From: Nymphaea colorata
Taxonomy: Eukaryota; Streptophyta; Magnoliopsida; Nymphaeales; Nymphaeaceae
Direction of reading: 5' to 3'
NCBI RefSeq assembly: GCF_008831285.2
Contig: NC_045146.1
Coordinates: 20,785,289-20,849,288 of the forward strand
DNA: 64,000 nucleotides
The notes beneath the pieces are model-generated. The model was not told where the DNA came from. It searched no databases and saw only the letters and a program-made list of their open reading frames with translations. The stretch's first letter is position 1. Each line of letters begins with the position of its first letter. A program made the translations under genes and the position numbers. Of this stretch, positions 19,854 through 64,000 are shown piece after piece.

Positions 19854-19948
19854 TGCAGTTTCCTAGCGAACACAGTAGAAAAAAATCAACAGTTAAACTC
19901 TTAATCAACTAAGCTGCCGAAATCAGCAATGCACAAAGAAAAAAAAAA

Positions 19949-23362: not shown

Positions 23363-25229
23363 ATTTGTGGTATGACAACCACAACCGTAGCTTTTATAAA
23401 CGTCGGACCTGAAATCCATAATTGTGAAGTCCACTGTTTGCTTCAGCATTGGATTTTACCTAATGTAGATTTGAGATCAGCTTCGAGTTTCAGACCCAAG
23501 GCTACAAGAGGCGTTTGTTTATCACGAATACAACACTCGAGGTGAATTGAGACCACTGGGGATCTATGATACAAGGATTTAAGGTCTGACCCCCTTCCAT
23601 CCACCCTCAAATCAAATCCTCATTTTCTTTATAGATCTAAAATCCGGTGTTATTTACTGCCTGTGGGCTCTACATAAAAAGGATTTCAGATAAGGGTCAT
23701 ATGTAAGACCTCATGCTATTAAACACCCTGGTTAGGGGAGAGGCAACTTAAGTACTACAACCAGAGTAGGTAAACTCATTGTATACTTTTCCGAGAGGAC
23801 GTGGTCTATTGTTATATAGCCATTTCTGTCATATAGCCGAACCACCCTACTTTTTATTAGTTTTAGTAAACAGGCTCTCGCAATGCGCAAGTGAGATGAG
23901 CGGTGCAGATTGCATGTGACCGTTAAATTAGTCATATACAAATTGAACTGACATGGGAGACATGCTAAAATCAGGACCTGTGCTAAAGATTTTTCGCCTG
24001 AAGATTGCCAAGTCTGACACCCAACATAGGGCCAATCGCATGTTTGTACAACCCCATCGTGGTTGCATCTGGATTTGGACATGGACAAAGCACGTTTAAA
24101 AAAGAGTCCAGATCCAATGAGTTGTGATCTCTTCAAAATTAAGGTGAACAAGTTTTCGGGCGTTGCCGGACCTGCACCGTGCAGGATTTCTCGGAGAAGC
24201 AAATATTTCATAAATTTTGAACATGTAAACACTCTTACCATATTTCATGCACCGGGCAAATGGGGAGGCATTCTCTTCCACAACAAGGAGCCCCATCACC
24301 GCCACCGGCCTTTTCTATACGACGAACAGCTAGCGGCAAGAAAAAGCCAGTGGTGGCAATGGGGGAGGCAACAGACTGCCCATCCATTTTCTTTTTACAT
24401 TTCCTTTTTTAAAAGAAAGGGACGAGGCAGTGTCACCTCCTCCACGGCCGCTGGCTTTTCCTTACAGCCGACAAGAAAAGGCAGGCCGTCAAGCGCCCAA
24501 GCGTGGGGCACATCCTTTTGTTTTCTTTTATTATTAAAATGTGGGCTATCTACATACACGGGCCAGACCAGCCGAGTACCGTTCAGATTCTCTTACCGGA
24601 GCACAACTGCAAGTCCCTCCAAGGAGATGGGTCCTGCGGCCCTTGAGATAGATGGGTGCTTCATGGTTGGGAAAATGGGACTAATTTCTGTGATTCAGAA
24701 CCCATGGTACACCATTGGTGGCTGAAGAGAACCTCAAAGCATTTTACTTAGTGATACAGAGGAAGAGATTGGGCAAGGAAAAAAAAGAAGCATGATGACA
24801 CTCCAAAACTCATTTTGAGGAAAAAAATGATTTTCCCTCCAAAACATAGTTTCACGAACGTTTGGCTGACACAGAAAATGAGTCGCAAGTGTATTCCAAC
24901 TAATGACGTTGTTTGGACGCCAGCAGTTGAGTTCAAAAATTCAAGTTTCATTCCAGTTCAACGATATAAAGTGATCGGTGCGTCGTCGAAGGATTTTGTA
25001 TTATCACCAAGCGGATGTCAACTGCTTTGCTGTCAATATGTACAAATATGTGTAAAAACTTAAGACATGTTATAATATTTTGGGTGAAAACTTTGTGAAG
25101 AGCACATAAAAAATTGCAAAAGGATTAAGAAAATTTTACAAATATCTAGTGAAAGGAAAAAAGAGCATGAATGACATCCATAAATGACGTCAGTATCTGA
25201 TTGATAGAAAGCTTTGAGGTTATACGGGC

Positions 25230-29045: not shown

Positions 29046-29398
29046 CTATGTGACACGGGTACGCTTGTTTTGCCCAGGTACCTATAACAACCTGACCCAC
29101 TCCTGAGCTTGAGCCCCAGGTTCGGCAGATCCCAACCCGCCCCTTAGCAGTTTCGTCTCCAACCCTAAAAAGGCTAGGAACCAAGACAATCATCTCATTA
29201 ATGGCACCCTTTATAAGCCCTTGAAGATCTCTCACAATCTTTGATACAGGACTAAACTTTTGAGGCATTACAATCCATCCCCCTTAAGGCACACGCGTCT
29301 GCGCGTGTGGGACCCCAGGTCCAAGTGTTGAACTGGCTCTAATACCACTATAACAACCAGACCCACTCCTAGGCTCGAGCCCCTGGTTCGACGGATCC

Positions 29399-35000: not shown

Positions 35001-35479
35001 GATCCCAACCCACCCCCTAGCAGTTTCGGCTCCAACCCTAAAAGGGCTAGGAACCAGGACAATCATCTCATTAATGGCCCCTTTTATAAGCCCTTGAAGA
35101 TCTCTCACAATCTTCGATACGGGACTAAACTTTTAGGGCGTTACAGTACCTGTGTCGGTACGTGGGTACGACGACACGGGTATGGGTACAACTGCATTTT
35201 AAAACTTTTAAAATTATGTTTTCAAACTTAATTTTTTTCTAATTTTTTATTTTCCCTTCTTTTATATTTCCCTTCCAATAAGATTCTATATTTTTCTCTC
35301 ATTTTGAGATTTTTGTAGATTATAAGCCTATTAATACTTTTTTTTTTCATTTTATCATTTTTGAAAATATAAAATTTGCGGACCCACGCACCCACAATTT
35401 TCAAAATTGCCATGTCCGATCCTGTACCACCGTACCCGCACTCGTACTGTACCGGCACCGATGTGACATAGGCTAGCAC

Positions 35480-38164
35480 ATTATATATTCCCCTTACATG
35501 CAATGCTTTTAGCCTTTTACTCATTTTGACAGGATAGCACAAGAGGGAACATGTTCTGTTAATTGAAGATGGATAAATAAATAAAGAAGGAACCCACACA
35601 AGTAATGTTGGTCAATTTCTTCAGTAGATAAAGCAGCCCATTGGTCTTCAATGAATAAGGGTTTTGATATTAGAGCTCACCTTTATGTAAGTACCACTTC
35701 TCTTGGACATATCCCCAGCATCTAAAGAAATAACCGACCAGCTTAAGTTGGATGCCAAACCCTCCTTTCGCTGCAATAAGGAATTTACCATTTTCAGCCA
35801 GTGCTATAAGCAATCTAAAATGGATATTACTTCAAGATGAGATTCTATGAACCAAATACTAGGGAAACCATGGAACAGACTTTTTCTCAGCTTTACAAAA
35901 TTATTAGAAACATTAGGCAACACTAACAAAACAAAGTCAGGACCTAAGTACAGGGAAAAACACCAAGAACCAGTATAATAGAAAAAAGTTCAATAAGAGG
36001 AACAACAGTTGAAGTTGTAAATTAAAAAAAAAAAAACTTGATAGTATCAAAAAGGTTAACAATAGATTGCTTTGATTTAAACGAAGGTGCAGGTCATAGG
36101 TATAAGCAACACGACCACTCTTTATGTAAGACTTTACCATTGTATCTGTCAGGCCAGGCTGCAAAAAGCAAAACCACCAATTTCTTCAGCAGATAAGAAA
36201 GAACAAAAAAAATAAAAGATGAGGTAATACCCCACTATTAGTGCAATTTTGACAAAAAACTTTGCTGATGATCATCAAATTGTAATCACCAACTAAAGAA
36301 TTTCACAGAGTAAACTGTACAAGATGCCCATTGAACACCACACTTGAGTTTGCTACAAAATTGCAACCGATGGTTGATAGACTGCTCAAATATAAAAAAA
36401 ATGATCCAATACAAATGCATTTTTACTTTGTTACTATGAAGAACTCAAATTTACACAAAAAAGGAAGGCAAGAAGAACTGAATTCTACATGCAGTTTTTG
36501 ACACCACAGATAAAGGAAAACCTCCAACCTTGCATGTTGTTGATACCTGTTTATTTTTAATTGTCACCTACGCATCTTTTGCATTAAGAATCATGGCACA
36601 AAAACACTGACAATATAATCCTTGGGTTGAAAGCTAACAGAGAAAATATTGTTCGAGGAACTGCCCAGAAGAACTCGAATGCTAATGCAAGTAGATCTTG
36701 ACCACCAAGCAAGTTATTCCAAGATTGACATCAGTTATTTCTTCACAGAAAAAGGGCTGCTAGCAGGTAAAGGAACATTGATATCAGTTGTTTCTTCACA
36801 ACCTACTTAAAGCAAGTACCATAGTGACTCTTAAACCCCAAGAGATTTACATATGGTTCTGATTATGGAAGACTAAATGGGCATTTAATCAAGATCTGCA
36901 CACAACAACAACATCAACATCAAAGTTCTTCCAACCAATAGTTGAAAAGTGAGCAATCACATCCAATAGCGGAATTTATTAACAAGTATAAACTATCTGA
37001 TGCATCATTAAAATGACTAAGAGCAAGCCCAAAAAAAATCTTTAGCTACCAAAACATCGTTCGGGAAACATTGTTCGGCTCAGCAGATAGTAGGAAACAA
37101 AATCAACAATAAAAATTTTCAACAAAGAACAGATAAATGTAATGTTTTTTTCGACAGACCTGCTTCAAAGAGATCAGAAAGTCAGCTCCCTTGATAACTC
37201 ATGCATCTTGAAAACTTCCTTGGTAATCCTGCAGGGGCAGGATGTTGTCATTAAGCCGACAGTTTATCAAATGCACCAACCAGATCCATAGATAATTATG
37301 TGCTGCAGATTCTTTTGGAGCAAAAAGTTTATGCTCAGCTGGAAGAAATCAAAATGCATATGTTTTTGTTTCCAGACCTCCACAATTGTGTTGTAGCTCT
37401 GATTACTAATTTTGCTAATGCAGATGACACATGTGTCGAGCCGACTTGTGCTGTGCTTCTTGATTTTGTTCACTTTCAATATACCATGTTTACATTAGTT
37501 TTCAAAACCAGCAAGGTACTGACACATGCAGTTGCACCACATCAAATTAGAAACCTAATAATTACCTATTTCATTCAAAATCCTGATTGAGAATGTTTAT
37601 ACTAGATTCCACCGCCAGCAAGAAGTAATTATTGACATGTGAAAGGAAGAACAATATAAAAATCTACAACGAGCGAAAAGCTTCAACCAAGTGAAGCAAA
37701 CTGTTAACAGTTGACGCTAATCTTGCATATCGCATATTTACAATAGATTTTGAGGTCGTCACAATCATAATCCAAGTCAAATGATGTTACAGCTAACATG
37801 ATCATAAGTTATCACAATGAATCCGAATTAGAGAAGCCTCACACAATGAATCCGAATTACAGAAGTCACGTTTCAGGGCTCGCACTATCTCCTACCTAGC
37901 ATCATATTCTGAACAAAAGGATAAAACTTATTGAAACAAAAATTCAGTTTACAATTCTAAAAATTTCATAACGACAAAATCTTGTGTATAGATTCTAAAT
38001 GTGCACTGTTAAGTTGTAAAGTAGGGAGTTTAATCTAGCATTATTAACTGTGCTAGATTATAACCTAGCACTGGTAAGTTTAAAATAGGGAGTTCGAAAT
38101 TGCTTCTTGTAACATTTCAACCTAAGGAGGAGATACATTACATAGGAGAAGGAGACAAAGAGAA
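35480..38164. other. Block A non-coding sequence with orphan exon
   Basis: Intron-like AT-rich sequence matching 59,970-62,680 in B. It contains the orphan exon listed next and, on the minus strand, a 21-bp exon-like piece flanked by TTTTTGCAG and GTAAAG near 36,135-36,160 (PGLTDTM). Another piece after CTGCAG near 37,230 reads VIKGADFLISLKQ but has a stop upstream in frame. Confidence 0.4.
35681..35770 (-). pseudogene. Orphan 90-bp exon of an unidentified gene (copy A)
   Basis: Exactly 30 codons in phase 0, bounded by an acceptor TATTGCAG and a donor GTGAGC on the minus strand. It starts RKEGLASNLSWSVISLDAGD and continues to SGTYIK. The B copy at 60174-60263 keeps both splice sites and frame, with two Leu-to-Val changes. 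I do not recognise the protein. Neighbouring exon-like pieces contain stops, so I treat this as part of a decayed gene, but a live exon is possible. Confidence 0.5.
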
Positions 38165-38730
38165 GCTCCAGCCGAGCATACCGGATGCTCTGGTTCTTGA
38201 CGTCCTTGGGCACCTACGAACGAAGATCCGTATCAGACGGCTGGAGGTTCTCGAACACGCCGATTACCTCGCTGGCCTCCGGCTTGCTCTTCGTCACGCT
38301 CAGCGTGATCTTCCCCTTGGACGACAACGAGCCCTTGATGTTCTCCTTCACCACATCCTCCTCGTTTCCCTGCCCTCCGTGGGGTGAGCCACGGCATTGT
38401 CGGATCCAACCTTGCCAACCCTCCCCTGGGGGTTGAGAAAGGACGATCCCCGGTAGGAAGGCACCAGGAACTCGCCCCCGGAAATATCTGTCTTGCTAGA
38501 GGCCGCGAGCCCTTTGACAGTGAAAAGGAAGAGGTCGCGCTCGCCACTCGCCACGAGGGAGGTGAACGGTGCCGGCCAAGTAGTCGATCCCGTCGTTCTC
38601 CTCGAACTTGATGGAGCCATCGGAGGAGACCTAGAAGGGGCACTCGATCACGTCCAGGGTGTAGGTGAGGTGGGTGACGAGATTCTTCTAGTGGAGCTCC
38701 GGCGGGGCGTTCTTGCTGATGCCCTAGACC
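38165..38730 (-). pseudogene. PSBO: PsbO (33-kDa oxygen-evolving complex protein) pseudogene, copy A
   Basis: The C-terminal half of PsbO, the manganese-stabilising protein of photosystem II, read across shifting frames. Recognisable pieces from the N side: [104 protein letters not shown]. It has at least two frameshifts and stops, one of them (before VPKDV) shared with copy B. The normal final stop after LES is missing. The N-terminal half and transit peptide are absent. No introns interrupt the matched part. It was already a pseudogene before the A/B duplication. Confidence 0.88.
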
Positions 38731-39450
38731 TTTCGGCATCTTCAATGGTGCAGGAAGCATGTCGAAATCCCCAACCAGCCATGGTGTTCTCCGATGAGAG
38801 TTGCAGAAAGAGAAACCTGTAGTGTTCTGATCGGACAAAGAAAGGCTCCAGCGGCCCATGTGAGGGCGATCCGATGGGTGCGTATCTTACAAAACAATAA
38901 AGAAATGGCGGGAGAGAGAGCGCGCTCGCCGGAGAGGGAGAGTGGGAGCTTCTTGTAACAGCGGGCGCCTTTTTGATGACCAAAGTCTCGTAACTGTTTA
39001 CAAAGAGGAAAAGCGACTCGCAGTCGCACGTCCAGCGGCCTAACGTGGAAGGTGTCCGCTTCCCTCCAATTTCTGCCAGCCAACATGTATTTGAAAAAAA
39101 ACAAATACAACGAATAGTTATTTGCGACAACCAAATCGGAAAAGTAGTTAAACTTTAGAAATCAATCTTTTCCTTTAAAATCCAATTTATACATCGGTCT
39201 GTGAGTTTTTCTCGTTTGAATTCGAGTTCATTACACGTTTAACTCTATGAAGAGTAGTTTAGAATATTGAAAAACTCATATCTCTAAATGGCTTATGACC
39301 ATCTACTTATTTTACCAACTCATCTCTCTCTCTCACGAAATCGCAATCCCAATATAAAATATTCGAACTGTTTAATAATCAACATCTAAGTTTTTTTTGG
39401 TTGATAATACCCATCTTATTTTTCAAATTTACAATATTGTATATACGAAC

Positions 39451-45595: not shown

Positions 45596-45886
45596 CTAGT
45601 GCATCATAAATAGGTGGGAAGGGATGGGCTTGCCGCACCTACTGGCGACGTCGACCACCTTTTGCATGCTGATCATCCTTTCAATTTCAGGGGTGATGCG
45701 GCCGCAGACGCGGACGAGGTTGGCGCCCCTGACCGCATTGCAGCAGTCCTCAGAAGGAGGCACCGGCGGCAGCTCCCTGGCCACAAACGGTGTGCACCGG
45801 GCACCCAGAATTGCCAGGTCTTGGTCACTAAAGCCTGGCAAATTCTCCAGCACCAGCCCGGCCAGCAACAGGCCCAACACTACCAT
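45596..45886 (-). CDS. Lipid-transfer/prolamin-superfamily-like small secreted protein, possibly decayed
   Basis: A 96-codon single-exon frame, ATG at 45886-45884. The N-terminus MVVLGLLLAGLVLENLPGFS is a signal peptide. The rest resembles the small plant helical LTP-like proteins of the eight-cysteine superfamily: PPSEDCCNAVRGANL, then ITPEIERMISMQKVV and RCGKPIP. Only five cysteines remain (31, 48, 49, 61, 84). The first Cys, the first of the CXC pair (here VRVC) and the last (normally just after the CGKPLP region) are missing, and the protein stops early. It may be a pseudogene with an open frame or a divergent member. It lies between two partial copies of the P1 gene, inside rearranged DNA. 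Family fit from memory; the Cys pattern is directly visible. Confidence 0.6.
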   Translation of the reverse strand: MVVLGLLLAGLVLENLPGFSDQDLAILGARCTPFVARELPPVPPSEDCCNAVRGANLVRVCGRITPEIERMISMQKVVDVASRCGKPIPSHLFMMH

Positions 45887-46112
45887 GCCCACTCTGTAGA
45901 ACAGAGAGGATCTCCAGAGAGGATCTCCATGCCGCTCTCTCTCTCTGCCTCGCCCGGTTCCCTTCCCTTGCTACACTGTGGCCGTGTGCATGAGAGCAAG
46001 AATAGCCCTTAAGGACTTCATTAAATTAAATGTGGAGGAACACGAGCCACATTTAATCCAAAACAATAGGTGGTAGTTGGCGTCTGCTGTTCACCTACCA
46101 CCTGCATTCATT

Positions 46113-46962: not shown

Positions 46963-47249
46963 ACAAGGCTGGTGTGGTAAGTTCGGGTCGATGTCCACCA
47001 ACACCACGATCCTGTCTGACCCGACCGTTGGGCCAGGGGCATCGCCGAGTCGTCTATGTACGCGAAGACACTGAACCGGACCGGAGTCTTGAAACGTCTC
47101 CGAGACCATTAAAAACCCTAGACATTGAAACGTCTCCGAGACCATTCTGCGTTTTTTCTCAAGAGCCTCTTCGCCTGCCTTCTTTCTGGTATGCCCTCCT
47201 GAACTGTAGTGTTTTCAACAGTGCAGTTCAGTTTGTCTTGTACCTAAAT
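46963..47249 (+). pseudogene. Second partial copy of the P1 5' region
   Basis: Matches P1 upstream DNA from about 12,760 to 13,065 (GTGTGGTAAGTTCGGGTCGA onwards) and ends at CTTGTAC, where it is joined directly to the start of block B. It shares an extra ACATTGAAACGTCTCCGAG stretch with the copy at 44.4 kb that the intact gene lacks, so these two copies are closer to each other. Confidence 0.85.
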
Positions 47250-48299
47250 TTGTGGTATGACAACCACAACCGTAACTTTTATAAACGCCGGACCTGAAAT
47301 CCATAATTCAGCATTGGATTTTACCTAATGTGGATTTGAGATCAGCTTCGAGTTAGAGATCCAAGGCTACAAGAAGTATTTGTTTATCACGAATGCAAGA
47401 TTCAAGGTGATCTGAGATCACTGGGGATCTATGATACAAGGATTTGAGGTCCGACCCCCCTCCATCCACCCTCAAATCAAATACTTATTTTCTTTATAGA
47501 TCTAAAATCCAGTGTTATTTACTGCCTGTGGGCTCTACATGAAGAGGATTTCAGATAAGCCTCATATGTAACGCCTCATGCTACTAAACACCCTGGTTAG
47601 GGGAGAGGCAACTTAAGTAGTACACCGGAGTAGGTAAGGTAAACTCATTGTATACTTTTCCGAGAGGACGTGGTCTGTTGCTATGTACCCAATTCTGTCA
47701 TATAGCCGAACCACCCTACTTTTGTTAGATTTAGTGGACAGGCTGCCAATGCGCAAGTGAGATGAGCGGTGCAGATTGCATATGACCGTTAAATTAGTCA
47801 TATACAAATTGAACTGGCGAGGGAGACATGAGTCTGACCCCCCGGGACCCAATATACGGCCAATCGCATGTTTGTACAATCCCGTCGGGTTGCATCTGGA
47901 TTTGGACATGGACAAAGCACGTTTAAAAAAGAGTCCGGATCCACTGAGTATTAACCCCCGTCTTTTTTTTTTTCATTTGTGATCTCTTTAGGCGAAAAAG
48001 TTTTCGACCTGGACCGTGCAGGATTTCTCGGAGAAGCAAAAACTGTCGTACCATATTTTAGGTACCGGGCAAATGGGGAGGCATACTCTTCCACAACAAG
48101 GAGTCCATCACCGCCACTGGCCTTTTCTATCCGGCGGACAGCTAGCGGCACTTTTCTTTTTTAAAAAGAAAGGGACGAGGCAGAGTCGCCTCCTCCGCTG
48201 CCGCTGGCTTTTCCTTACAGCCGACAAGAAAAGCAAGGCGCAAGCGCCCAAGCGTTGGGCACATTTCTTTTTGTTATATTATTAAAAAATGGGCTATCA

Positions 48300-49410
48300 A
48301 TGTGAGTCAGAGGGCTGTTCATGAGCGAGTTCGAGCCGAACTTGGCCAAGCTCGGCTCGCAATCGACTACAGAAAGAACGAGCTCGAGTCGAGATTCTTA
48401 AAGCAGGCTCGAGCTCGAATCGACTACTGAAAGTCGAGCTCGAGCAAAAATTTAACACAAGCCATACGAGGTCTACCCCATCGATGGGTCTCACGATCCA
48501 TCGTATGCCGCTTGTTGTGGAGAGCACACGGCATTCTTTAGTAAAAGGCGAAAGAATAGAAACCTCTGTGCTCACCACGCGAATGCGTGAGTTGAATCGT
48601 TGCCCCTCTCTTCATTATATAGGCGACTGAGGGCCACCGATTTCTTCCGGCTCATCGATACAGGACTAAATATCGCACTTTTGAAATCTCGACTTCTCTG
48701 CACAGGAGGAAACGGAGGTCCGTCCGTCCTTGGGTCTTTGAGTTCTTTTAATGCAGCCCGAACCGTCAACAGTTCGGGTCCAAGGCACCAAATAATCAAA
48801 GCCAAAATCCGACTCTGTGAAAGCTTGGAATTCATGTCGGGATCCGGACTTGATTTGTAAAAGTGTGAGTCCAAATCGGAACCAAAGCTGAATACCAATG
48901 TCGATCTCTATGCACCAAGGCGATGGACTTGAACAAATTGGATCTGCATTCTGTTTTCTCAGTTCTTGCCAGGTAGGGTTCACACCACAAGGAAACCCGT
49001 CAAGTAGATGCTTAACCAGCGGGTTTCACGTATAAAGCCTCATACTGTAGAGTAAGGCTACTCGATATCCAGGTCCAAGCCACACCCACATAAAGCCTAA
49101 TACTTAATACTTTTGGAACCAGGTTTTCTTAATAAAATCTCAAACTATCAACATGACTGAAGATTAAACTAGTCATTCTTTTTAGTCCTGTATCAAAACT
49201 TTTCAAAGAGAAGCTACAAAATCTAATGACTTTGTCCCACCATGTTGTTTTGTGTGTGTGGGAGACCTCGATGGGGAAACCTCGTATGCTGTGTGTTAAA
49301 TTTTTTGGAAAACCGGTTCACCGTTTCAATTTATTTAATACCGAGTCGAGCTAAAGTTTTTAGAAAACCGGTTTCTTGAACCGGTTCACCGTTTCACTTT
49401 ATTTATTCTC
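48300..49410. other. Block B-only insertion of about 1.1 kb, unclassified
   Basis: Absent from A between the GGGCTATC and GGCACAACTGCA/GAGCACAACTGCA positions (about 24,550-24,600). It begins near GGGCTGTTCATGAGC and has many GAGCTCGAG/CTCGGCTCG palindromes in its first 150 bp. Near its end an ACCGGTTCACCGTTTCA motif occurs twice. It is probably a mobile element, but I found no clean terminal repeats or target duplication. Confidence 0.45.
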
Positions 49411-49864
49411 TTAGCGGGGCACAACTGCATGTCCCTCAAAGGAGATGGGTCCTACGGCCCTTGAGATAGATGGTGCTTCATGGATGGGAAAATGGGAAAT
49501 TTCTGTGATTTAGAACCCATGGGACACCATTCGTGGCCGAAGAGAACCACAGAACATTTTACTTAGTGATACAGAGAGGAAGAGAGATTGGGCAAGGAAA
49601 AAAAAAAGGCACGATGAAACTGCAACACTCATGTTGAGGACAAAAATGATTTTCCTTCCAAAACATAGTTTCACAAACGTTTGGCTGACAATGGGTCGCA
49701 AGTGTATTCCAACTAATGACGTTTTTTGGACGCCAGCAGTTGAGTTCAAAAATTCAAGTTTCATTCCTGTTCAACGATATGAAGTGATCGGTGCGTCGTC
49801 GAAGGATTTTGTATTACCACCAAAGTTCAGCGGATGTCAACTGCTTTGCTGTCAATATGAGAAC

Positions 49865-51893
49865 ATATTCTAACCAATTTTTAATATATATATATATATA
49901 AAGCTCTACAAAATATCTGGAGTCAATATAAATATGAGAACTATGTAGATTAATATGAGTCGTCTGATCCTTTTACATTTGGTACAAACAGTAACATGTG
50001 TAAAGTTATCTTTTCAAAAAGATGCATAACAGTTCATAATTTGACTTTGGAAAACTAACTTTGCATGGTATACCATGTGAGCAATCAATCAAACATGATC
50101 ACGCGCATGAAATCAATTTATCCAATTTTAATGTTTGCTCATATGTCATATGTGAATGTGTTTGTTTGTTTACCCAAAATTTTGAATGCATGTACCGGTC
50201 TCCCTTACAAGAAAAGAAGAGTCTCCATTTTAGTCACTCTTAAACCAAGAGTGTTCCTGAAAGGCGCAGAGAAGGTCTCTTAAGGCATTTCATCCAACAT
50301 TTGCATATCCCATTGGCTTGCCTCTGAATACACGGCGAAGAGTAACCAATCGGACATGTATCTTTTTCACCTAGATTTATGGTGAAAACAGTCACAGCTT
50401 AGAGGTACAGCATTCCGCGGTCATGCATTTTTAGAACATTTTTTACGGTTTTAAGATGATTTGAATAGTTTGTAATCTTAGTTTTCGTACTGCCGATTAA
50501 ACTTCTGTGTCCTCAGATAAACTTCCATGTCCTCAAAAATGAAATAATATTGAGAAACTTTTTTATTTAAAAATTTTTGCAACAAAGTACCGCAAAAAAC
50601 TTCAGTGAATCAGCACAAATGTAAGAAAAGCTTTGAAAGACAAGCATTCGAAAAGAAAAAGCTGGCGACATTTTAAAATTATGCCCAAAGATTTCAATAT
50701 CGTTAGAACAAAGCTAAATTTTTCCAGAAATAATAAAAAAGTCCATAAGACCATTCTTTTGTCAGAATAATCGTTAAATCAGTAATAGTAATAGGTAACC
50801 ATTTTGCCATGTAAAAATTTATCTGAAAAAGAAAATAGTTTTCGATTTTTTTTTAGAAATAAGTTTGATTCAAAGTGCATTTCCGTAATTTAACCATTCA
50901 TTTTTAGCGTTTTCCATTGGAAGGTGGCTATTTCAGAGCTACATGAAATGTTGGGTGCCTATTTGATGACATTTAGAAGTTGAGCAGCAATTTGTTAACC
51001 ACCCATTTCCGGAGCTGCTTTTCTCTCATTTTTTCAATGACTAAAGCAACAGCAAAGACATGTGCAACATGATAATAAGTAGAGAAGGAGATGAAATTAA
51101 CAGGAACAGTACTGCCCGGAGCACAGCTTCACAGAAAAGTTAGTCTACCATAACCTGAAAAAAGTCAATCAACCAAATAAGTTAAGAATATCCAACAAAA
51201 GTTAAAAGACAAATTAAAGAGTGGATTCTGCATTCCTCAGAGACTGAGTCTCCAAAAAAATCAGCTCCCCAATTTGGTTTCAAAATCATACAGCCATGGG
51301 ACTTGATTTCCTAACTTGCCCGGTAGAAGATTAACATAAAAATCAGAAGCCTCTGGGAGCGTAGAGAATAGCTCCATATACTAACTAGCTAATATGGTAT
51401 AACTAATATAATACAGCACTTGAGAATGGAAAGAAAAAAGGAAAAGAAAAACAGAAAGAATACTTCAGCCGAGGAATCTATGTTGCAGTCGGTTGATCAA
51501 AGGAGAGTGCCCTCCATTGCCTACTACATGAAACCTAGCAAAGGACAATGACTTCTGTGGGTTAAAGTGAAGGAGCACAATATTATGACTGAAAACATCC
51601 AAACATATTGAATGTTGGACAGAAGTCCAAAGGAGAAAAAAGAAAAAATGAAAGATGATGTTTTCATCCAATTATGGACAGTTGGTCACAACTGATATCA
51701 TGTTAGAGGTGTCAACTGCTTTCCTGTCTCCAAAGCATAACTGTAGTCTCAATTTATCTAATTTCTACTTTTATCTGTATCGATTTGTCAAATATCAACA
51801 TATCAACTCTCCAGTTTTTATCAATAGGAATTAATGAGTTATCTCTTGTTTTAATCAATCATGTGCCGTAGTGAGATGATATTTTATAATAGA
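49865..51893. other. Block B-only sequence, no gene seen
   Basis: AT-rich sequence with a short (AT)n near 49,890. No coding region, RNA gene or element ends could be supported. Confidence 0.45.
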
Positions 51894-52348
51894 AGTAACA
51901 CCCAAAAAATTTAGTTTCGTATTGAAGATTGTGAGAGATCTTCGAGGGTTTATAAAGGGGGTTATTACATAAATGGTTGTCTTGGTTCCTAGTGTTTTTG
52001 AGATTGGAGCCGAAACTGTTAGAGAACGGGTTGGGATCCGCCGAACTATGGCCCGAGCCCAGGAGTGAGTCAGATTGTTACAGTGGCATCAGATCTAGTT
52101 TAACACTCGGATCTAAGGTCCCACACGCACGGACGCGTGTGCCTTAAGGGGGATGGATTGTAACACCCAAAAAATTTAGTTTCGTATTGAAAATTATGAG
52201 AGATCTTCAAAGGTTTATAAAGAGGGTTATTACATAAATGGTTGTCTTGGTTCCTAGCATTTTTGAGGTTAGAACCGAAACTGCTAGGGGACGGGTTGAG
52301 ATCCGCCGAACCAGGGGCTCGAGCCCAAGAGTGGGTCAGATTGTTACA
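51894..52348 (+). mobile_element. TRIM retrotransposon, uninterrupted
   Basis: Same family as the TRIM in block A, opposite orientation. LTRs 51894-52082 and 52159-52348 with a 76-bp internal part: a primer-binding-like GTGGCATCAGATC after the first LTR, then TCCCACACGCACGGACGCGT, and the purine tract CTTAAGGGGGATGG before the second. The 5-bp target duplication ATAGA is exact. No coding capacity. Confidence 0.9.
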
Positions 52349-52353
52349 ATAGA

Positions 52354-53027
52354 TATTGGCATGCCATGCAATTTACATATGGTTTCTAGGAAAGCTTTGG
52401 CTACTACCATGGCAAAAAATGGGTGATCAAAGTACACAAAAATGCATTGCTTAGAAGTTTGTCCAGAACTTCTATTTGAAGGGTCTCGTATGCTGCTGGT
52501 CCTTTCGATGTCAGGCCAACAAAAATTGTGATAGATCATACGAAGCTTTGCAGAACTTTCCCAAACAAAGAGAAGAGCATAAAGTCTAAAATTTAAAACA
52601 ATCCAAAATAAAGAAGCATTTTTCAAAAGTTTGATAAAAATCTCGAAATTTAAGTTTGACAAAAATTTTTGACATGTTTGCAAATATATATGAGTTCAAA
52701 ACTTTATAATTGTTCATTCCTGTTAGAGATTTAGAAAAACTCAAAAAAGTTTAAGAAGTGTCTAATTCTTATTTAAAAAAAGATGAAAATTTGAGAAAAA
52801 AAGTTTCCAAAACCGTAAAAACTTGAGCTACCTTAATGCATAAAAATTAAGAAAAATTTGCAAATATTTGAGCAGAAAAAGTACGAGCATAAGAATCGGT
52901 TTTTCAAAAAAAAAAAATCAGTTTATAAATGTTCATTGAGCATTAAAACTTTGTGAACTTTAATGAAGAAAACTATAAAAGGTTGTCTCAACAAAGGAAA
53001 AGTTTGACAAAATTTTTAATTACTTTA
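52354..53027. other. A-rich sequence between the TRIM and the Harbinger-like element
   Basis: Low-complexity A/T-rich DNA. It shares short similarity with about 56,080-56,290 on the other side of the Harbinger-like element. No gene seen. Confidence 0.4.
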
Positions 53028-53512
53028 GGGCCCGTTTGACGGGCTGGAAATTTCCTGTAGCTCAGGAAAAAAATTTCAAAATTTTAAAACTTTTCCAGTT
53101 AATCAAACGGAGAAATTTTTTAATGACCGTTGCAAGTGTTTTCGGAAACATCTTTCCACCGCGAGGGGTGGAGAAATGTTTCTGGAATTTTTTTTTTGCC
53201 CGTTACCGCATAAACTCATCGCGCGTCCGGCTCCTCTCGTCTTCCTCTTCGACGCTTCATCCTCGGCTGTTGCTGCCTCAATCCCCTCGTCGTCCCTGTC
53301 GCCCTCTCACTCGCCTGCTGTGAAGGTAATCATCTCTCTCTCTCACTCTTTGTCTTGTGAGTTTCCCCGTGTACCTGAGAAACAAGGTCGCTAAGGGCTT
53401 CGAGGGCGCTAATCCATGCCCATTGTTCAGGTGAGTCAGCGTCGCTCTTGCTTCTTGGGGGTTTACGTCCTGCTTTCCGAGGCCTTTTTTCGTCGGAGGC
53501 CGTCGATCGAAA

Positions 53513-53647
53513 ATGCCGAAGAGGGGAAAAGGGAGGGAGGAGGACTGGAACCCTAGCTCCGGCGACTCCGACGGTGACGCGCTGGCGAAGAAGGGCGCCA
53601 AGCGGTCGTTTGGCGGCAGCAGCGACGACGGGATCGTTGTCTGCGAG
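53513..53647 (+). pseudogene. KIWI: Exon 1 of a KIWI/PC4-type transcriptional coactivator gene, rest absent
   Basis: Forty-five codons from ATG to a donor GTATTC: MPKRGKGREEDWNPSSGDS, then a Lys-rich AKKGAKRSF and the end SSDDGIVVCE. This matches the N-terminus of plant KIWI, a PC4/Sub1-type RNA polymerase II coactivator that binds single-stranded DNA; IVVCE is the end of the tail before the PC4 fold. The following PC4 exon (ISKNRRV..., IREFYVKDGK) is not found in either the next 2 kb or the rest of the window. A GC-rich leader precedes it, so the piece looks like a copied promoter plus first exon. If transcribed, it could make a truncated or chimeric product. Confidence 0.75.
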
Positions 53648-54642
53648 GTATTCTCCCTTGCCTTTTTATGTAATCGTTTTCCTTATCGTGATAGTTTGGG
53701 CGGATGCCCTTGTTATTTTTTCCTCCCTTTCACGGCAGGGAAGCCCTAACCCTTAAAATTTGTGCAAGGATAAACACGAAATGATTTTCCCTTTTGTGAA
53801 TGATCTGGATTCATTTCCCTTTCCAAGCGAAAACCATTACTTGCTTTCCCAAAGTTTCCACTTCTGCTTCTATTAGCTTAGCGTTTCGTTATCTGCAGTA
53901 GTGGAACGATTGCTTGTTTCTGAGCATCTTCTTAGTCGATTTGAACTAACCGACAAGAAGTTTAGGGATAGGTTCGATGTTGTCTTCATTCTTCTTGTCT
54001 TTCTGTCTATCTGCTTTTCGTTTAGTCGTTTGCGCTTTTTTCGCACTTTGTCATTCTCTGGAGCTTTCTTTGAAGGGTTCACAAGAAAATTTCGATCGCT
54101 GCGAGGGATGGTCCATGGACTCGAGCTTTTTCTGGAGTTCTCTATTGCATACATTGCATACATATGTTAGTTGCCTTGTAATTGCGATTTCTGTGTGTCT
54201 TTTTGCACAAAACGTCTGGAAGTACTTCTAAGTAATAGCTTAGTGCTCCTGTAGAGAGTTTAGAATCAGGTGGTTCTGTAGTAACTGATGCTTGTTTCGG
54301 GGTTAGGATGATGGGTTATGCGGAGAGTGGGGAAAGACAAACTCTGTTCTGGTCGTTATCTTGTATTTAGAAGCATCTGTATTGTGTTTTTTGTTGGTTG
54401 CGTTTATCCTCAAGAATGTGATTGTATGAGCTCCTCTATGTGATAGAAACTGGGACTTTATTCAGTTTTTTTTCGGTTTGTACATGTTCCTGATCTTTTA
54501 CTACTCCCTCATAAATGTACATTCTTTCCAGCAGAAAGAGTATTAAATGTAGCCTGATAAACAATTCGGTTGTGCGTCATTAATGTATTATAATGTAATG
54601 TATTATATGTATTTATGTGCTCTTGTTGTTGTTATGCATAAT

Positions 54643-54644
<2 letters not shown>

Positions 54645-54678
<34 letters not shown>
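54645..54678. repeat. (AT)n microsatellite
   Basis: An uninterrupted AT dinucleotide run of about 34 bp within the Harbinger-like interval. Confidence 0.95.
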
Positions 54679-54682
<4 letters not shown>

Positions 54683-56535
54683 TTTGGGCTGACAATGTCC
54701 ATGCGGCTGGGCAAGGCTCCAAATGTCTGGCCTAACATCCATCTTTATGTGTATCTGTTTCACTTGACTGCATGTTTGATTTATATTGTAATATTACTTG
54801 CTACAAAATTACACATTAAAGATGCCGTGGTTTTATTCTCTCTCAAGACAACAGGGACGAATTTTTGTGCAGAACGAAAGTGTTATTTCAGGGGGATAGG
54901 TCTTTATTCTCCAAGATGGATGAGCTATAATGTTCGTTCAAATGTAATGTTCTTGTTTTTCCTTGTGTTCAACTAGGAGCCATGAAATTGGAAGCAACAA
55001 AAGGAGCTCACTTTGGAAGGATTTGTAACACCTCAAGTTCCAATCGAGGTTAGATCAGTATCTGTGAAAATGGACATATTCTCAGTGTTGAATTTCATAA
55101 TCCTGTCATCAAAACTATGCTGGCAAAATGTTCCAACTTTTCGTTGTAAATTTGATGTATGTGCAACTAGAAGATTGTCCATGTTACAAATTTTCTTTAC
55201 GTCAACATCTGCAACTACTCCATTAAATAAATGGTCAGTGTTATGTTTTTACATTACCACTTGGTTTTAAGCACAGTTTCTTTTTCTTCTACTAAGCTTT
55301 TTATGATTAGTATGCAACCATTTCATGACTGCCTGTAACATGGCAACCCTTGAATTACTTGAGTTTCCTGTTCCATGATAGCCCCTAGTCATGGTAGCTC
55401 CGGTTGGATTTTTATGAACATTTCTCTCTGCATAAACCAAAGCAGGATGTACTCTTCCGGACTGAGGAGGATTTCTATGGTCTGTGTTCTATTTAAAAAT
55501 TCTGGAAATAAGTTTCTTATATCAAACTAAGAAATGTATTTCTGGAAATCTGGAAATATATTTCTTAAAAATCAAACACAGAAATATGTTTCTGGAAATA
55601 TATTTCTCATTTATCACACACTCATCAAAATGGGAATCAGAAATATTTTTCTTATTCTCTTTTTCCAGAAAATATATTTCCAGAAATATATTTCCAATTC
55701 CATAATTCCATGCCATCAAACGGCCCCTTAGTGAAAATTGACCAACAATCAGAAAGACTGACAAGAAATCATGAATAGCTGACCAATCTGGATAAATAAT
55801 CATGAGCATATAAATGAAAGTTTAGCTTCCTAATAAATGTTACAGAAATCAACATTTTGAAGAAGTTATAATTTAAGGAACAAACTAGGGCGGTGCAAGA
55901 ATGACCCCCTGGCACACCATTAGTTCGATGAGAAATAGAAAGGAATATTGAAAATTCGAGTTGGTGAAGCTGAAGCAGCTACTTTCGCAAAATGATTAAA
56001 GAATTTTCACATACCAAAGATTTGTCAAAGACTGTTATAACAAATGGAATATTTGAAAAACTGTTAGAGATATAAAATCAGGAAATGTTTTTAAAAATTT
56101 TGAAATTTAAAAAAAAAATTAAGCTGAAAAAAAAAATTCTCTCAAGTTTGTTAACATATATGAGTTGAAAACTTTATTACTGCTCAAGAGTGTCAAAGAC
56201 TAGAACAAGGCTTAAAAGGGTTTGAAATGTTTTCAAACCTTGGTTCAAAAAATTGTGAAAATTTAACCCCAAAAATGTAACAAAGCTCAAAAATTGTAAG
56301 AAGTTAAGACATGTTATAATATTTTGGGTGAAAACTTTGTGAAGAGCACATAAAAAATTGCAAACAATTAAGAAAAATTTACAAATATGTAGTGAAAGGA
56401 AAAAAGAGCATGAATGACATCCATAAATGACATCACTATCTGATTGATAGAAAGCTTTGAGGTTATACGGGCCATATACGCTCTATGCAACAAAACACAA
56501 TAACGCAAGCTGAGCAGAAATGGATCATCAACGTT

Positions 56536-57424
56536 GTTAGAAGTTAATTAGAGGTTTTCTTAAATTTTAAAAAGTTGGAAGGGTCCACTTTATTGTTATC
56601 TTATTTCTAGTGGACTAATTTTGTAAAGTTGTCAACACACCCTAATCCCTTTAATATGAGATTAGGGTTACATGAATAGAATCTAAAAGTTTCCTCTCTC
56701 TCTCTCTCTCTTTCTCTCTCTCGTGTCCTTTTCTTCCTCCTCAAAAATGGTATCAGAGAGAAAGACCTAGGGCTGTGAGATCTAGGCCACGCTCCTCCCC
56801 TCCTCTCCTCCTTTCTCATCTCTCCTATCAAGCTATCACGTCTGAAATCCCTATTGATTACAAAAGGAGCAATCAGACTAGTTGGTGGAAAGGGGCTAAT
56901 CATGTTTAACATGTTGAAGACGTGATTAGCACTCTGACGTGATTAACAACAAATCTGATGTTGTTGCGTATGGTGCTGTGATGGAAGAAGGTCAGGCCAT
57001 CGACAAAGGTATGCTAATCAAATCTGATGTCGTTGTGTATGTTGTTGCCATGGAAGAAGGTCAGGCCATCGACAAGGGTATGCTGATCTGCTTGGTTGGG
57101 TGCTGCCTCTTGGATCTTCCCATTAGAGAATCGTTGAAGTCAAGTGGTGCAGACTGGTTTCAGATTTTTTTTTTTGACAGAATCGTTGAAGTCAAGACTA
57201 GTTTCAGTTTGCCTTGTTTTCCAGCATAGTGGACGTTGAGCGGAGCTGTTCAACCTACGCTTACTTGCTGCCTAATATCTATCTCTAATATTGCTGCCTG
57301 AGATCTACATCTGATAGCACCTGAAACTAGTCAGCTATTCTCTGGTTGTGTTCATATTGCTGCACGTTTGGTTGTGTTCATCTTGTTGCACGTTTTTCTT
57401 TTGCTGTGATCCATGTATATTCTA
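56536..57424 (+). mobile_element. Copia-type LTR retrotransposon remnant in block B
   Basis: An LTR at about 56536-56747 starting TGTTAGAAGTTAATTAGAGG, with a CT microsatellite near its end, then a primer-binding site TGGTATCAGAG. About 670 bp of leader or coding remnant follow, including a 69-bp tandem duplication. It replaces the gypsy integrase region found in A. The element is broken and largely missing; no second LTR is seen. Family assigned from the primer-binding site only. Confidence 0.65.
56951..57088 (+). repeat. 69-bp tandem duplication
   Basis: Two units (56951-57019 and 57020-57088) beginning AAATCTGATGT and sharing GGAAGAAGGTCAGGCCATCG. They stay in one frame and differ at about 9 positions. 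Confidence 0.92.
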
Positions 57425-59611
57425 TAATATAGTATGAATAAGAGTAGGGGACGTGGATCCACTTAATATGAGGTCCTGCTTGTATCACCCTTCGTAATAT
57501 GTATGTATATATATACACACACACACGCTGCAGGTGAGGGTGACCCGACTTTTATGAGAAAGTTAATGAAAGTAATCCCCTCGCTGATGTTGGGATTTGC
57601 CCTAATTTGGTGAGTAATTGTTCTTTCTTCTCGATTTCCCCTTCGTATTCTCTAAAGCTGCTGGGCAGAATCGGTAGTAGAAGGAGAGTGAGAGAAGCTA
57701 TCAAAGTTCCTTAAGCAAAGACATATATGTATGAAATCTAGTGGCAAAGAAGAGTGTCTGCATGAAACTTTAAACATGGGCATCAAATTGATTCATACAG
57801 AAAGCAAAGCACTAATTTTCCAGTAGAAAGAATTATCATTAGAAAGAGATATTCATGTTTTCTGCGCAATGATTTGAAAAGAGAATAGAAATTCTATATC
57901 GCACACCAAAAGCAGTTAAAATAAACCATAAAATGAGTAGGAAAACAATCTGCATTACACACTGTATACACGCCTAAGCTATGGGATGCTCCAACTTTGG
58001 ATCCTATAAGAATAAATATGCAACACATAATCAATATTGATAAATAATATAGAACTGTTTATCTTTTCTACAGATAGAGAACAACACCAGCATCCAGGAC
58101 AAACTGAACTGTCCTGAAGTGCACAACCAACCATCTTAGAGAAAGCTGTAAAAGTTTGCATCACTTCAAAACCTGCCAAAATTGAATGTTAGATATGAAA
58201 TCAAATTATTTTCTATTAGTACGATGCATTCACAAAAAACACACCTTAGCCTTCCTAATTGGAAGATAGAACCTAGATTAAAGGATCTCCTCAGAACCTG
58301 GAAAGCCCTCTTCTCTGCGAAAGCTCAAAAGAATAGAAATTCTTGACATTAAAAGGAGGAAAACATATAAGTTGACTTTTTAGCTACAGTATGTAAGTTT
58401 GCATTGCCAGAGAAAAAAAAGGTCAAATATTGTTACCAAGCTTAGATCATCGAACAGTCCCTTGTGCATTTTTAACTAAAGAGAGATGCCCCTCGTAGGA
58501 CCTCAATCAAGTTCCCTTTGTCAAATTGTATATTATATATTCTTAATGCCACTTTTGAACATATACTATGCAAGTATGCAACTTATAATATTGTTCTCTA
58601 CTGGAAAGAAAAAAAGACCTTCCAAGGCCCTACTAATGGCACAAGGGTAAACTGAAGACATCAAATTCAGCTCAAGTTTAGTTCCCAAGAAAGAATGTCC
58701 AAATCTGTGCATCAACACAAAAAGTAGGGGACTTAAACCACCGTAGTAGTTTGATAAGAACCACTATAGACATCTTGCCAGGTTCATGTAAAGATGGTGA
58801 ATCAAAGAAGAAAAAATCGTAATCCAAAAGAAAAGGAGAAAAAGAAGGAAAAACTAGATCCAAAAAAGTAAATATTCTTCAATCAAACAAGTGCACAATT
58901 AAAACTGACCAAAAAAAGAGTAAGTTTGTTATCAATTGTTTGTAAAAGCCGGCATCCATATCTGCATGAACTTTTCTTTCAAGAAACAAATTAATCAGGT
59001 GCTTCTGATAAAAATAAATACCCTACCTTCTTCCATGTAGCGGCAGGGAAACAAGCATGTGGGTTTGCAACTCACAGGTCAACCGATGTACATTCAGCAT
59101 GTCAAGACCTCTGTGCTTTATGGAATGCGTCATGTGAAAACTTGATTAGCATCAGGAAAATAAGAAATTGACATGTCTGCAGACTAGAGAACAGCCTGGT
59201 TGCTTTATACACTAGGGGAAAGAATGACATACATAGGTAAAAGACAACTATAAAAGACAAGAACTCTCAATCAACCATCAGCTCATAGTTGATCTTGGAA
59301 ACTTCCAATAGCCTACCTAAACTGTCTTCTACATGCACAGAATTTGCTTTTGAGTTAACTTATAGGGCACCCTGGGAGAATCTCCTAGTAGCAACTGAAA
59401 CTCCCCCTCTACCTGTGTTGCTAGTGCCCTAATCATGCCAAAGTGAGACTTCTTTTCCAGTAAACACGGCAGTTTTGCTGAGAAGGGCCATCAGCCTCTT
59501 TAAGTCAAGACCCAATCTTTTCAGTTGTAATTGCATCAACAAAAGTGAAGTGCACAGGTGTTCAATGAGTCGATCCAACTTGGGGTTCACTCGAGCTTGC
59601 TTGGCTAGCAC

Positions 59612-59961
59612 CTATGTGACATGGGTACACCAGTTTTGCCCGGGTACCTGTGTCGGTATGTGGGTACAGCTGCATTTTAAAAATTTTAAAAAATATATTT
59701 CAAACTTAATTCTTTTCTAATTTTTTATTTTCCCTTCTTTTATATTTCCCTTCCAATAAGATTCTATATTTTCCTCTCATTTTTCTCTAATTTTGAGATT
59801 TTTTGTAGATTATAAGACTATTAATACTTTTTTTTCCATTTTATCATTTTTGAAAATATAAAATTTGCGGACCCGTGTACCCACAATTTTCAAAATTGTC
59901 ATGTCCGAACCTGTACCGCCGTACTCACAACCCGTACCGTACCTGCACGCATGTGACATTG
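59612..59961. mobile_element. hAT-like MITE, uninterrupted copy in block B
   Basis: 350 bp flanked by the exact 8-bp duplication GCTAGCAC (59604-59611, 59962-59969). Ends are CTATGTGACATGGGT and, reverse-complemented, CAATGTCACATGCGT. The interior has GGTACC and CCGTAC palindromes around an AT-rich core. It contains the single GTACC that is the empty target of the TRIM in block A. Confidence 0.88.
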
Positions 59962-60173
59962 GCTAGCACATAATATATTCCTATTCCCATTACATGCAAT
60001 GCTTTTAGCCTTTTACACATTTTGACAGGATAGCACCAGAAGGAACATGTTCTGCTAACTGAAGATGAATAAATAAATAAAGGAATCCACACAAGTAATG
60101 TTGGTCAATTTCTTCAGTAGATAAAGCAGCCCATTGGTCTTCAATGATTAAGGGTTTTGATATTAGAGCTCAC

Positions 60174-60263
60174 CTTTATGTAAGTACCACTTCTCTTGGA
60201 CATATCCCCAGCATCTAAAGAAATAACCGACCAGCTTACGTTGGATGCCACACCCTCCTTTCG
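60174..60263 (-). pseudogene. Orphan 90-bp exon of an unidentified gene (copy B)
   Basis: Same 30-codon exon as 35681-35770 in block A, with acceptor TTACAG and donor GTGAGC kept and no stop. It starts RKEGVASNVSWSVISLDAGD. Conserved frame and splice sites in both copies suggest either recent decay of the parent gene or a still-used exon. Confidence 0.5.
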
Positions 60264-62679
60264 CTGTAATAAGGAATTTACCATTTTTAGCCAGTGCTAT
60301 AAGCAATCCAAAATGGATATTACTTCAAGATGAGATTCTATGAACCAAATACTAGGGAAACCATGGAGCTGACTTTTTCTCAGCTTTACAAAATTATTAG
60401 AAACATTAGGCAACACTAACAAAACAAAGTCAGGACCTAAGTACAGGGGAAATCACCAAGAACCAGTATAAGAGAAAAAAGTTCAATAAGAGGAACAACA
60501 AATTGAAGTTGTAAATTTAAAAAAAAAAAATTGATAGTATCAAAAAGGTTAACAATAGATTGCTTTGAGTTAAACGAAGGTGCAGGTCATAGGTATAAGC
60601 AACACGACCACTCTTTATGTCAGACTTTACCATTGTAGCTCTCAGGCCAGGCTGCAAAAAGCAAAACCACCAATTTCTTCAGCAGATATGAAAGAACAAA
60701 AAAACGAAAGATGAGGCAACACCCCAGCTACTAGTGCAATTTTGACAAAAAACTTTGCTGATGATCATCAAATTGTACTCACCAACTAAAGAGTTTCACA
60801 GAGTAAACTGTACAAGATGCTCATTGAACACCACACTTGAGTTTGCTATAAAATTGTTACTGATGGTTGATAGTCTGCTCAAATATAAAAAAATGATCTA
60901 ATACAAATGCATTTTTACTTTGATACTATGAAGAACTCAAATTTACACAAAAAAGGAAGGCAAGGAGAACCGAATTCTGGATGCAGGTTTTGACACCACA
61001 GATAAAGGAAAACTTCCACCCTTGCATGTTGTTGGTACCTGTTTATTTTTAATTGTCACCTACGCATCTCTTGCATTAAGAATCATGACACAAAAACACT
61101 GACAATATAATCCTTGGGTTGAAAGCTTACAGAGAAAATATTGTCCGAGGCACTGGCCAGAAGAACTCGAATGCTAATGCAAGTAGATCTTGACCACCAA
61201 GCAAGTTATTCCAAAATTGACATCAGTTATTTCTTCACACAAAAAGGGCTGCTAACAGGTAAAGGAACATTGATATCAATTGTTTCTTCACAACCTACTT
61301 AAAGCAAGTACCATAGTGACTCTTAAACCCCAAGAGATTTACATATGGTTCTGATTCTGACTATGGAAGACTAAATGGGCATACACTAAAATGAAGATCT
61401 GCACATAACAACAGCATCAACATCAAAGTTCTATTCCAACCAATACTTGAAAAGTCTGCAATCATATCCAATAGCGGAATGTGTTAACAAGGATAAACTA
61501 TCTGATGCATTTCATTAAAATGACTAAGAGCAAGCCCAAAAAATATCTTTAGCTACCAAAACATTGTTCGGCTCAGCAGATAGTAGGAAACAAAATCAGC
61601 AACAAAATTTTCAACAAAGAACAGATACATGTAATGGTTTTTCGACAGACCTGCTACATAGAGATCAGAAAGTCAGCTCCCTTGATAACTCATGCATCTT
61701 GACAACTTCCTTGGTAATCCTGCAGGAGATCAGGATGTTGTCATTAAACCCAGAGTTTATCAAATGAACCAACCAGCTCCATAGATAAATTATGTGCTGC
61801 AGATTCTTTTGGAGCGAAAAGTTTATAATCATCTGGAAGAAATCAAAATGCATTTGTTTTGTTTCCAGACCTCCACAATTGTGTTGAAGCTCTGATTACT
61901 AATTTTGCTAATGTAGATGACACGTAATCGTGCCGATTTGTGCTGTGCTTCTTGATTTTGTTCACTTTCAATATAGCATGTTCACATTAGTTTTCAAAAC
62001 CAGCAAGGTCAGTACACATGCAGTTGCACCACATCAAATTAGAAACCTAATAATTACCTATTTTACTCAAAATCCTAACTGAGAATGCTTATACTAGTTT
62101 CCACCACCAGCAAGAAGTAATTATTGGCATGTGAAAGGAAGAACAATATAAAAATCTACAACGAGCGAAAAGCTTCAACCAAGTGAAGCAAACTGTTAAC
62201 AGTTGACACTAAAGTTGCATATCGCATATTTACAGCAGATTTTTAGGTCGTCACAGTTATAATCCAAGTCGAATGATGTTACAGCTGACATGATCATAAG
62301 TTATCACAATGAATCCGAATTAGAGAAGCATCACACAATGAATCCGAATTATAAAATTCACGTTTCAGGGCTCGCGCTATCTCCTACCTAGCATCATATT
62401 CTGAGCAAAAGGATGAAACTTATTGAAACAAAAATTCAGTTTACAATTCTAAAAATTTCATAACGACAAAATCTTGTGTATAGATTCTAAATGTGCACTG
62501 TTAAGTTGTAAAATAGGGAGTTTAATCTAGCATTATTAACAGTGCTAGATTATAATCTAGCACTGGTAAGTTTAAAATAGAGAGTTGGATATTGCTTCTT
62601 GTAACATTTCAACCTAAGGAGGAGACACATTACACAGGAGGAGGAGACAAAGAGAAGCTCCAGCCGACCACACCAGATG

Positions 62680-63215
62680 CTCTGGTTCTTGACGTCCTTG
62701 GCCACCTACGAACAAAGATCCGTATCAGAAGGCTGGAGGTTCTCGAACACGCCGATTACCTCGCTGGCCTACGGCTTGCTCTTCGTCACGCTCAGCGTGA
62801 TCTTCCCCGTGGACGACAACGATCCCTTGATGTTCTGCTTCACCAGATCCTCCTCGTCTCCCCTGCCTTCCGTGCCACGGCATTGTCGTACCAAACGTTG
62901 CCAAGCCGGCCCTTGGGGTTGAGAAAGGACGAGCCCCGGTAGGAGGGCACCAGGAACTCGCCCGCGGAGATATCGGGCTTGCTAGAGGCCGCGAGCTCTT
63001 TGACAGTGAAAAAAAGGAAGAGGACGCGCTCGCCACTCGCCACCAGGGAGATGAACGGTGACGGCCAAGTAGTCGATCCCGTCCTTCTCCTCGAACTTGA
63101 TGGAGCCATCGTAGGAGACCTCGAAGGGGCACTGGATCACGTCCAGGGTGTAGGTGAGGTGGGTGACGAGAATATTGTGGTGGAACTCCGGCGGGGCGTT
63201 CTTGCTGATGCCCTA
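62680..63215 (-). pseudogene. PSBO: PsbO pseudogene, copy B
   Basis: Partner of the copy at 38.2-38.7 kb. Recognisable pieces: [66 protein letters not shown]. It keeps the Trp near the C-terminus and the FEV that copy A has lost, but shares the stop before VAKDV and has its own frameshifts. Like copy A it lacks the transit peptide and N-terminal half. Confidence 0.88.
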
Positions 63216-64000
63216 GACCTTTCGGCATCTTCAACGGTGCAGGAAGCATGTCGAAATCCCCAACCAGCCATCGTGCGCTCCGATAAGAGTTGCAGAAAGA
63301 GAAACCTGTAGTGTTCTGATCGGACAAAGAAAGACTCCAGCGACCCACGTGAGGGCGATCCGATGGGTGCGTTCTTGCAAAACATGGCGGGAGAGAGAGA
63401 GCGCGCGCGCCGGAGAGGGAGAGTGGGAGCTTCTTGTGACAGCGGGCGCCTTTTTGATGACCAAAGTCTTGTAACCGTTAACGTGCCCAACGTGGAAGGG
63501 GTGTCCGTAACATTTTAGGTAGTGTTTGATGGTGAGGGATGTTTGTTTAAAATAACAAACTCGGAATCATTTTTTGAATAATGTTTTGAGAAACATATTT
63601 TGGAAAAGTTATTCGCGACAATCAAATCGAAAAAGTAGTTAAACTTTAGAAATCAATCTTTCCCTTTAAAATCCAATTTATGCATCGGTCTGTCAGTTTT
63701 TCTCGTTTGAATTCGAGTTCATTACACGTTTAACCCTATGAAGAGTAGTTTAGAATATTGAAAAACTCCTATCTCTAAATGGCTTATCAAGTTTAAGCCA
63801 TGGATTTATTTTACCAACTCATCTCTCTCTATCACGAAATCGTAATCCCATTATAAAATATTCCAACTGTTTAATAATCAACATCTGTCTTTTTTGGCTC
63901 ATAATACCCATCTTATTTTTTCAAATATATGGTTTTAATATCAAGTTTTATTGTTTTTGAAGTAAAAAAGAAGTCCATATAATTGGTTTTTATAATAAAT
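63216..64000. other. End of window, block B flank
   Basis: Matches about 38,731-39,450 of block A, except for about 100 bp near 63,510-63,610 that A lacks. No gene seen; the duplication probably continues beyond the window. Confidence 0.55.

Follow-up and report, generated by a model that had tools for sequence, protein, structure and literature searches.

The window, a 64-kb stretch of Nymphaea colorata DNA, contains a glycosyl hydrolase 17 gene and a copia-type retrotransposon in which RVT_2 and integrase domains are recognized. Starch synthase exons (Glyco_transf_5), presumably those of a granule-bound starch synthase, are found on its minus strand at 17547–19862. The same strand carries, at 45599–45970, a small ORF for a lipid-transfer-type protein, for which Pfam LTP_2 and Tryp_alpha_amyl both score above cut-off. 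The present analysis deals with the 2.7 kb at 53028–55727, a candidate transposable element bounded by inverted repeats and enclosing the 5' end of a coactivator-like gene. Its features are as follows.

53025–53027, no strand: TTA, putative left copy of a 3-bp target-site duplication
53028–53042, plus strand: left terminal inverted repeat GGGCCCGTTTGACGG, a PIF-type end
53028–53196, no strand: left end zone, rich in hairpins; an inverted, worn copy of the end may lie at 53092–53110; inner limit putative
53197–53512, plus strand: putative GC/CpG-rich leader (5' UTR, perhaps core promoter)
53513–53647, plus strand: first exon of a KIWI/PC4-type coactivator, 45 codons, with intact ATG and donor-like GAG/GTATTC
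53648–55470, plus strand: non-coding interior, taken to be a portion of KIWI intron 1; right limit putative
55471–55727, no strand: right end zone, AT-rich, with strong hairpin potential; inner limit putative
55713–55727, minus strand: right terminal inverted repeat GGGGCCGTTTGATGG, read as reverse complement
55728–55730, no strand: TTA, putative right copy of the target-site duplication

Terminal repeats and end zones

The matching ends with adjoining TTA that the first-pass annotation had placed at 53028 and 55727 are correctly located: their terminal 15-mers agree at 13 positions and differ at two, and a longer ungapped alignment gives 19 matches over 23 bases. Both ends have the form G(N)5GTT, their length lies within the 14–25 bp of PIF/Harbinger terminal inverted repeats, and TTA on both sides agrees with the 3-bp TTA/TAA duplication of that superfamily. 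The first 11 bases of the left end are identical to those described for the maize ZmPIFa end, GGGCCCGTTTGTTT, which is likewise flanked by a TTA duplication (PMC6327408), and for the melon AndroPIF end (PMC11161486), the start GGGCCCGTTTG being common to all of them. Membership in the hAT superfamily was considered and rejected, as no 8-bp duplication is present (TTACTTTA and TTAGTGAA match by eye at five of eight positions).

Each flanking TTA is informative, since the local TTA frequency is only about 0.03 per position. TTA alone cannot pair the two ends, as it accompanies every PIF end. The sequence GGGSCCGTTTGAYGG is found at six sites in the window when up to 3 mismatches are allowed (2.62 expected), and its only exact occurrences are the two ends of the element. 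The window was also scanned for pairs of TTA-flanked inverted 15-mers with at most 2 mismatches, lying 100–5000 bp apart, at a GC content of at least 53%, of at least 40%, or without a GC filter. At 53% or more, one pair was found, against none in 40 first-order Markov windows, while at least one pair appeared in 5 of 300 third-order windows. One pair was again obtained at 40% or more (at least one in 14 of 300 third-order windows), and three without filter, for 0.3 expected. The end pair by itself is thus about a 1-in-60 chance event (5 of 300 windows), which is suggestive; it deserves more weight because its sequence is that of a published PIF end.

A further link between the two ends comes from the motif ATCAAACNNAGAAAT, which occurs three times in the 64 kb, at 53102, 55521 and 55571, always on the plus strand and only inside the two end zones. 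Since it is common to both zones, and since its core TCAAACNNAGAAAT is expected only 0.06 times (from 100 first-order windows), both ends look like members of one family. The two occurrences on the right belong to a 50-bp tandem repeat of two copies (55501–55599).

Each end zone also folds strongly on its own, with z-scores relative to mononucleotide shuffles of -7.5 for 53029–53112, -4.8 for 53029–53230 and -8.7 for 55471–55728. The left zone contains an inner inverted near-copy of its own end, TTTCCAGTTAATCAAACGG, at 53092–53110, which matches at 15 of 19 bases (score 22). This near-copy lacks the GGG end and an adjoining TTA, its score only equals the maximum seen in 52 kb of background, and a score of 22 is also reached against the right end by a second interior site, at about 55.1 kb. 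Moreover, it overlaps the subterminal motif that recurs twice in the right zone. It may be a genuine inner end, and is treated here as a lead, not as proof. Around the inner limit of the right zone (55465–55520), neither end has a conspicuous copy, with scores of 12 and 16. The highest-scoring inward-facing end matches of the whole interior lie elsewhere and reach 18 and 20, the 99.9th percentile of the background being 20.

The two complete short MITEs that would have accounted separately for the two ends were thus searched for at both end zones and not found, the left inner copy being worn and without TTA, and none standing out on the right. Decayed MITEs at the end zones are possible. The zones look neither like two complete MITEs nor like a simple pair of arms, and rather resemble what is expected from a published model in which neighbouring elements fuse, as discussed below.

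Leader, exon and non-coding interior

A GC-rich stretch begins directly behind the left end zone (59% GC in 53197–53660, compared with 26–30% in the flanks), while on the other side the interior is bounded by the AT-rich right end zone. The leader between the left zone and the ATG is 316 bp long. The proposal of a captured promoter is retained in part: this leader is rich in GC and CpG, and a transcription start may lie inside it, but at only 316 bp a full promoter is unsupported. The leader might also include a 5'-UTR intron, with a donor-like AAG/GTAATC near 53326 and an acceptor-like TTCAG ending at 53430.

The exon at 53513–53647 is open from the ATG to the donor-like site and translates as MPKRGKGREEDWNPSSGDSDGDALAKKGAKRSFGGSSDDGIVVCE. 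It aligns without gaps from residue 1 with a provisional Arabidopsis KIWI reference sequence (41% over 46 columns, E 6e-5); against the KIWI N-terminus alone it scores 32.0 bits, whereas 200 shuffles reached at most 23.5. The earlier description of an intact first exon of a PC4-type coactivator, with its start and donor, is borne out by the open frame and by this comparison. The name KIWI for the exon depends on that provisional reference. In the reference protein the PC4 domain covers residues 44–95, so that the window exon stops about where this domain begins. The exon alone was recognized neither by Pfam nor in the PDB, where the matches obtained (neocarzinostatin, E about 0.8) were dismissed as chance. 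No literature on plant or Arabidopsis KIWI with PC4 was seen among the matches listed, judged by title and start of abstract.

The absence of a subsequent PC4 exon, also asserted in the first-pass annotation, holds throughout the 64-kb window, including the 8.3 kb downstream of the element. The best other matches in the window had E 0.14 with the KIWI query, including an in-frame stop, and E 0.55 with the PC4 query. As a power control, human PC4 (43–48% identical) was inserted into random DNA in the form of two exons, both of which were detected, at E 8e-6 and 2.5e-4 with the PC4 query and at 6e-5 and 0.003 with the KIWI query.

Between the two ends, host gene sequence of the kind that characterizes Pack-TYPE elements is present as the KIWI-like exon, an assignment which rests on the provisional KIWI reference. 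The interior also holds 18 ORFs of at least 42 aa. Seven of these 18, including 54599–54973, were scanned against Pfam and contained no transposase or other domain at cut-off; all their matches were discarded as lying under the respective cut-offs. Searching the element against the window returned one 28-base AT-rich match and otherwise nothing at E ≤ 0.01. Rfam found nothing at gathering scores in 49000–58000, and the TTA-flanked end, sought as an exact pattern, was absent from the viral contigs scanned, as expected for plant DNA.

The surrounding tandem duplication

The element lies within a diverged tandem segmental duplication, in which 23363–39431 corresponds to 47248–63929 with 80–94% identity in the matched blocks. 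The first copy is contiguous at about 25041, where the second has an extra 6.43 kb (49859–56288) that contains the element. The matching block on the right is short (25043–25291 and 56288–56534); it is followed by an unmatched stretch in both copies, the match resuming at 26918 and 57413, respectively. The KIWI piece is therefore either foreign to the other tandem copy or lost from it. This other copy was examined as a possible exact empty site and rejected as such, because the difference exceeds the element: with 6.4 kb missing instead of 2.7 kb, it demonstrates no more than its own lack of the KIWI piece. No exact empty site was found in the window, where the joined flanks gave three weak junction-spanning matches, each with E 0.88.

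The immediate flanks of the element, 52552–52984 and 56000–56464, are AT-rich and align with each other as diverged direct repeats (score 85, compared with at most 41.5 in 60 shuffles).

The two tandem copies have received different insertions, the copia element (about 29.1–35.1 kb) lying in the first and the 6.4-kb stretch in the second. The extremities of the copia element, or their close vicinity (29.1–29.4 and 35.0–35.1 kb), are matched on the opposite strand, with about 80% identity, by a tandem pair at 51895–52348; this pair possibly represents LTR remnants.

A candidate Pack-PIF and its published relatives

The best explanation, to which a probability of roughly 0.6 is assigned, is that 53028–55727 is one PIF/Harbinger element, non-autonomous and 2,700 bp long, of the Pack-PIF type. 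Its end zones, of about 170 bp on the left and 250 bp on the right, would belong to one MITE-like family and lie between TTA target duplications. The host DNA that they enclose, approximately 2.3 kb, would derive from a KIWI/PC4-type gene, of which it would comprise the 5' part: the leader, the first exon and a portion of intron 1. The two ends would have acted as a pair, the element being moved in trans by a PIF transposase and its ORF1 (Myb/SANT) partner. The gene piece may have entered through the fusion of two neighbouring elements whose inner ends were lost, or else through template-switch repair inside one element, as described in PMC8277862. This reading is favoured because the ends fit PIF, the TTA flanks and the subterminal motif are shared, the gene is truncated, the end pair is uncommon by chance, no further PC4 exon lies in the window, and the diverged tandem copy is without the KIWI piece. 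Several findings count against it: the strong folding of each end zone alone and the inner inverted near-copy on the left; an interior tied to the ends by position only; an end pair that by itself reaches only the chance level given above, with TTA expected at every PIF end; and a KIWI identity that depends on a provisional reference, Pfam and PDB being blind to the exon alone. The first-pass idea of a Pack-type Harbinger element thus agrees with the ends, the TTA, the shared motif and the truncated gene, but falls short of proof, as no exact empty site was found.

The same folding and the same near-copy would also be accounted for by two independent MITEs of the PIF family, each with its inner end worn, flanking by chance a relocated 5' fragment of KIWI and never having moved together with it, each PIF insertion bringing its own TTA. 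Such an arrangement is rather unlikely, since no end copy stands out near the right inner limit and the best interior matches do not exceed the background; the left inner copy, devoid of GGG and TTA, is no better than the top of the 52-kb background, and the motif it overlaps is found twice on the right. A single Pack-PIF is favoured over two such MITEs.

The extent of the difference between the tandem copies raises another question, namely whether the KIWI piece came with a larger event covering 49859–56288, such as filler DNA or a rearranged insertion, with the PIF ends being incidental. The whole 6.4 kb is indeed missing from the tandem copy at about 25041, not the element alone, and the direct repeats flanking the element point in the same direction. 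The position of the GC-rich genic stretch directly behind the left zone and its closure by the AT-rich right zone argue against such an event, which is considered improbable; the lack of any domain at cut-off in four of the 14 listed ORFs in the rest of the 6.4 kb, which were scanned, adds thin evidence to the same effect. Slightly more doubtful still is a native KIWI gene whose first intron outlasts the window, with one MITE upstream and one in the intron. MITEs often lie near genes, and the exon, its start and its donor are intact, but no PC4 exon follows in the 8.3 kb downstream or occurs elsewhere in the window, although planted human PC4 was detected. The contiguous flanks of the tandem copy without KIWI also speak against a native gene, with the reservation that this copy may have lost KIWI.

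Compared with ZmPIFa and AndroPIF, the candidate Pack-PIF differs in carrying host gene sequence and in showing no recognized transposase or ORF1 in the ORFs scanned. Its ends also follow the G(N)5GTT rule stated for Medicago PIFs (PMC2213677). The PIF/Harbinger-like MtPH elements described in that paper have tandem repeats in the subterminal part of one end zone or of both, to which the repeat at 55501–55599 is comparable. Some MtPH repeats hold a AAACNNCTTATT motif loosely similar to ATCAAACNNAGAAAT, but the MtPH sequences differ from that of the window element, and the words "captured" and "gene fragment" are absent from the main text of the MtPH paper (PMC2213677).

It had been remarked that gene capture is less often described for PIF/Harbinger elements. 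This is a fair statement, yet Pack-PIF elements have already been documented in maize, in a survey that also covered rice (Gisby and Catoni 2022, PMC8903248). The class is therefore not new, and as reported there, one maize example supplies the second exon of a gene. The origin proposed in the same paper is the fusion of two neighbouring elements once their inner ends have been deleted or mutated. Like the maize Pack-PIFs, the window element has PIF-type ends, TTA flanks (mostly TTA/TAA in maize), a piece of a host gene and a non-autonomous character. For the maize clusters already known, related copies exist and the parental genes are named, whereas a single locus was read here, and the interior, at about 2.3 kb, exceeds by far the pieces of 163 and 58 bp described for Zm-Pack-PIF cluster 18 (PMC8903248). 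Animal Pack-TIRs likewise hold host sequence between their terminal inverted repeats, and those present in a single copy are mostly attributed to gap filling without transposition (PMC8277862). That study deals with animals, and the terms "Harbinger" and "PIF" do not appear in its main text.

A role of the element as a mobile first exon is speculation. It is conceivable, at long odds, that two MITEs of the same family joined around the KIWI 5' end into a Pack-PIF with a working transcription start, start codon and donor, each insertion of which could equip the host sequence downstream of it with a first exon ready for use, encoding an acidic KIWI-like N-terminus. As a single unreplicated locus, it constitutes a modest addition to the Pack-PIFs, which are less studied than the Pack-MULEs. 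If the Pack-PIF reading is true, an element with a gene leader and first exon between MITE-like zones would provide a useful test case, both for the model in which two neighbours become one element and for the idea that transposons carry new first exons.
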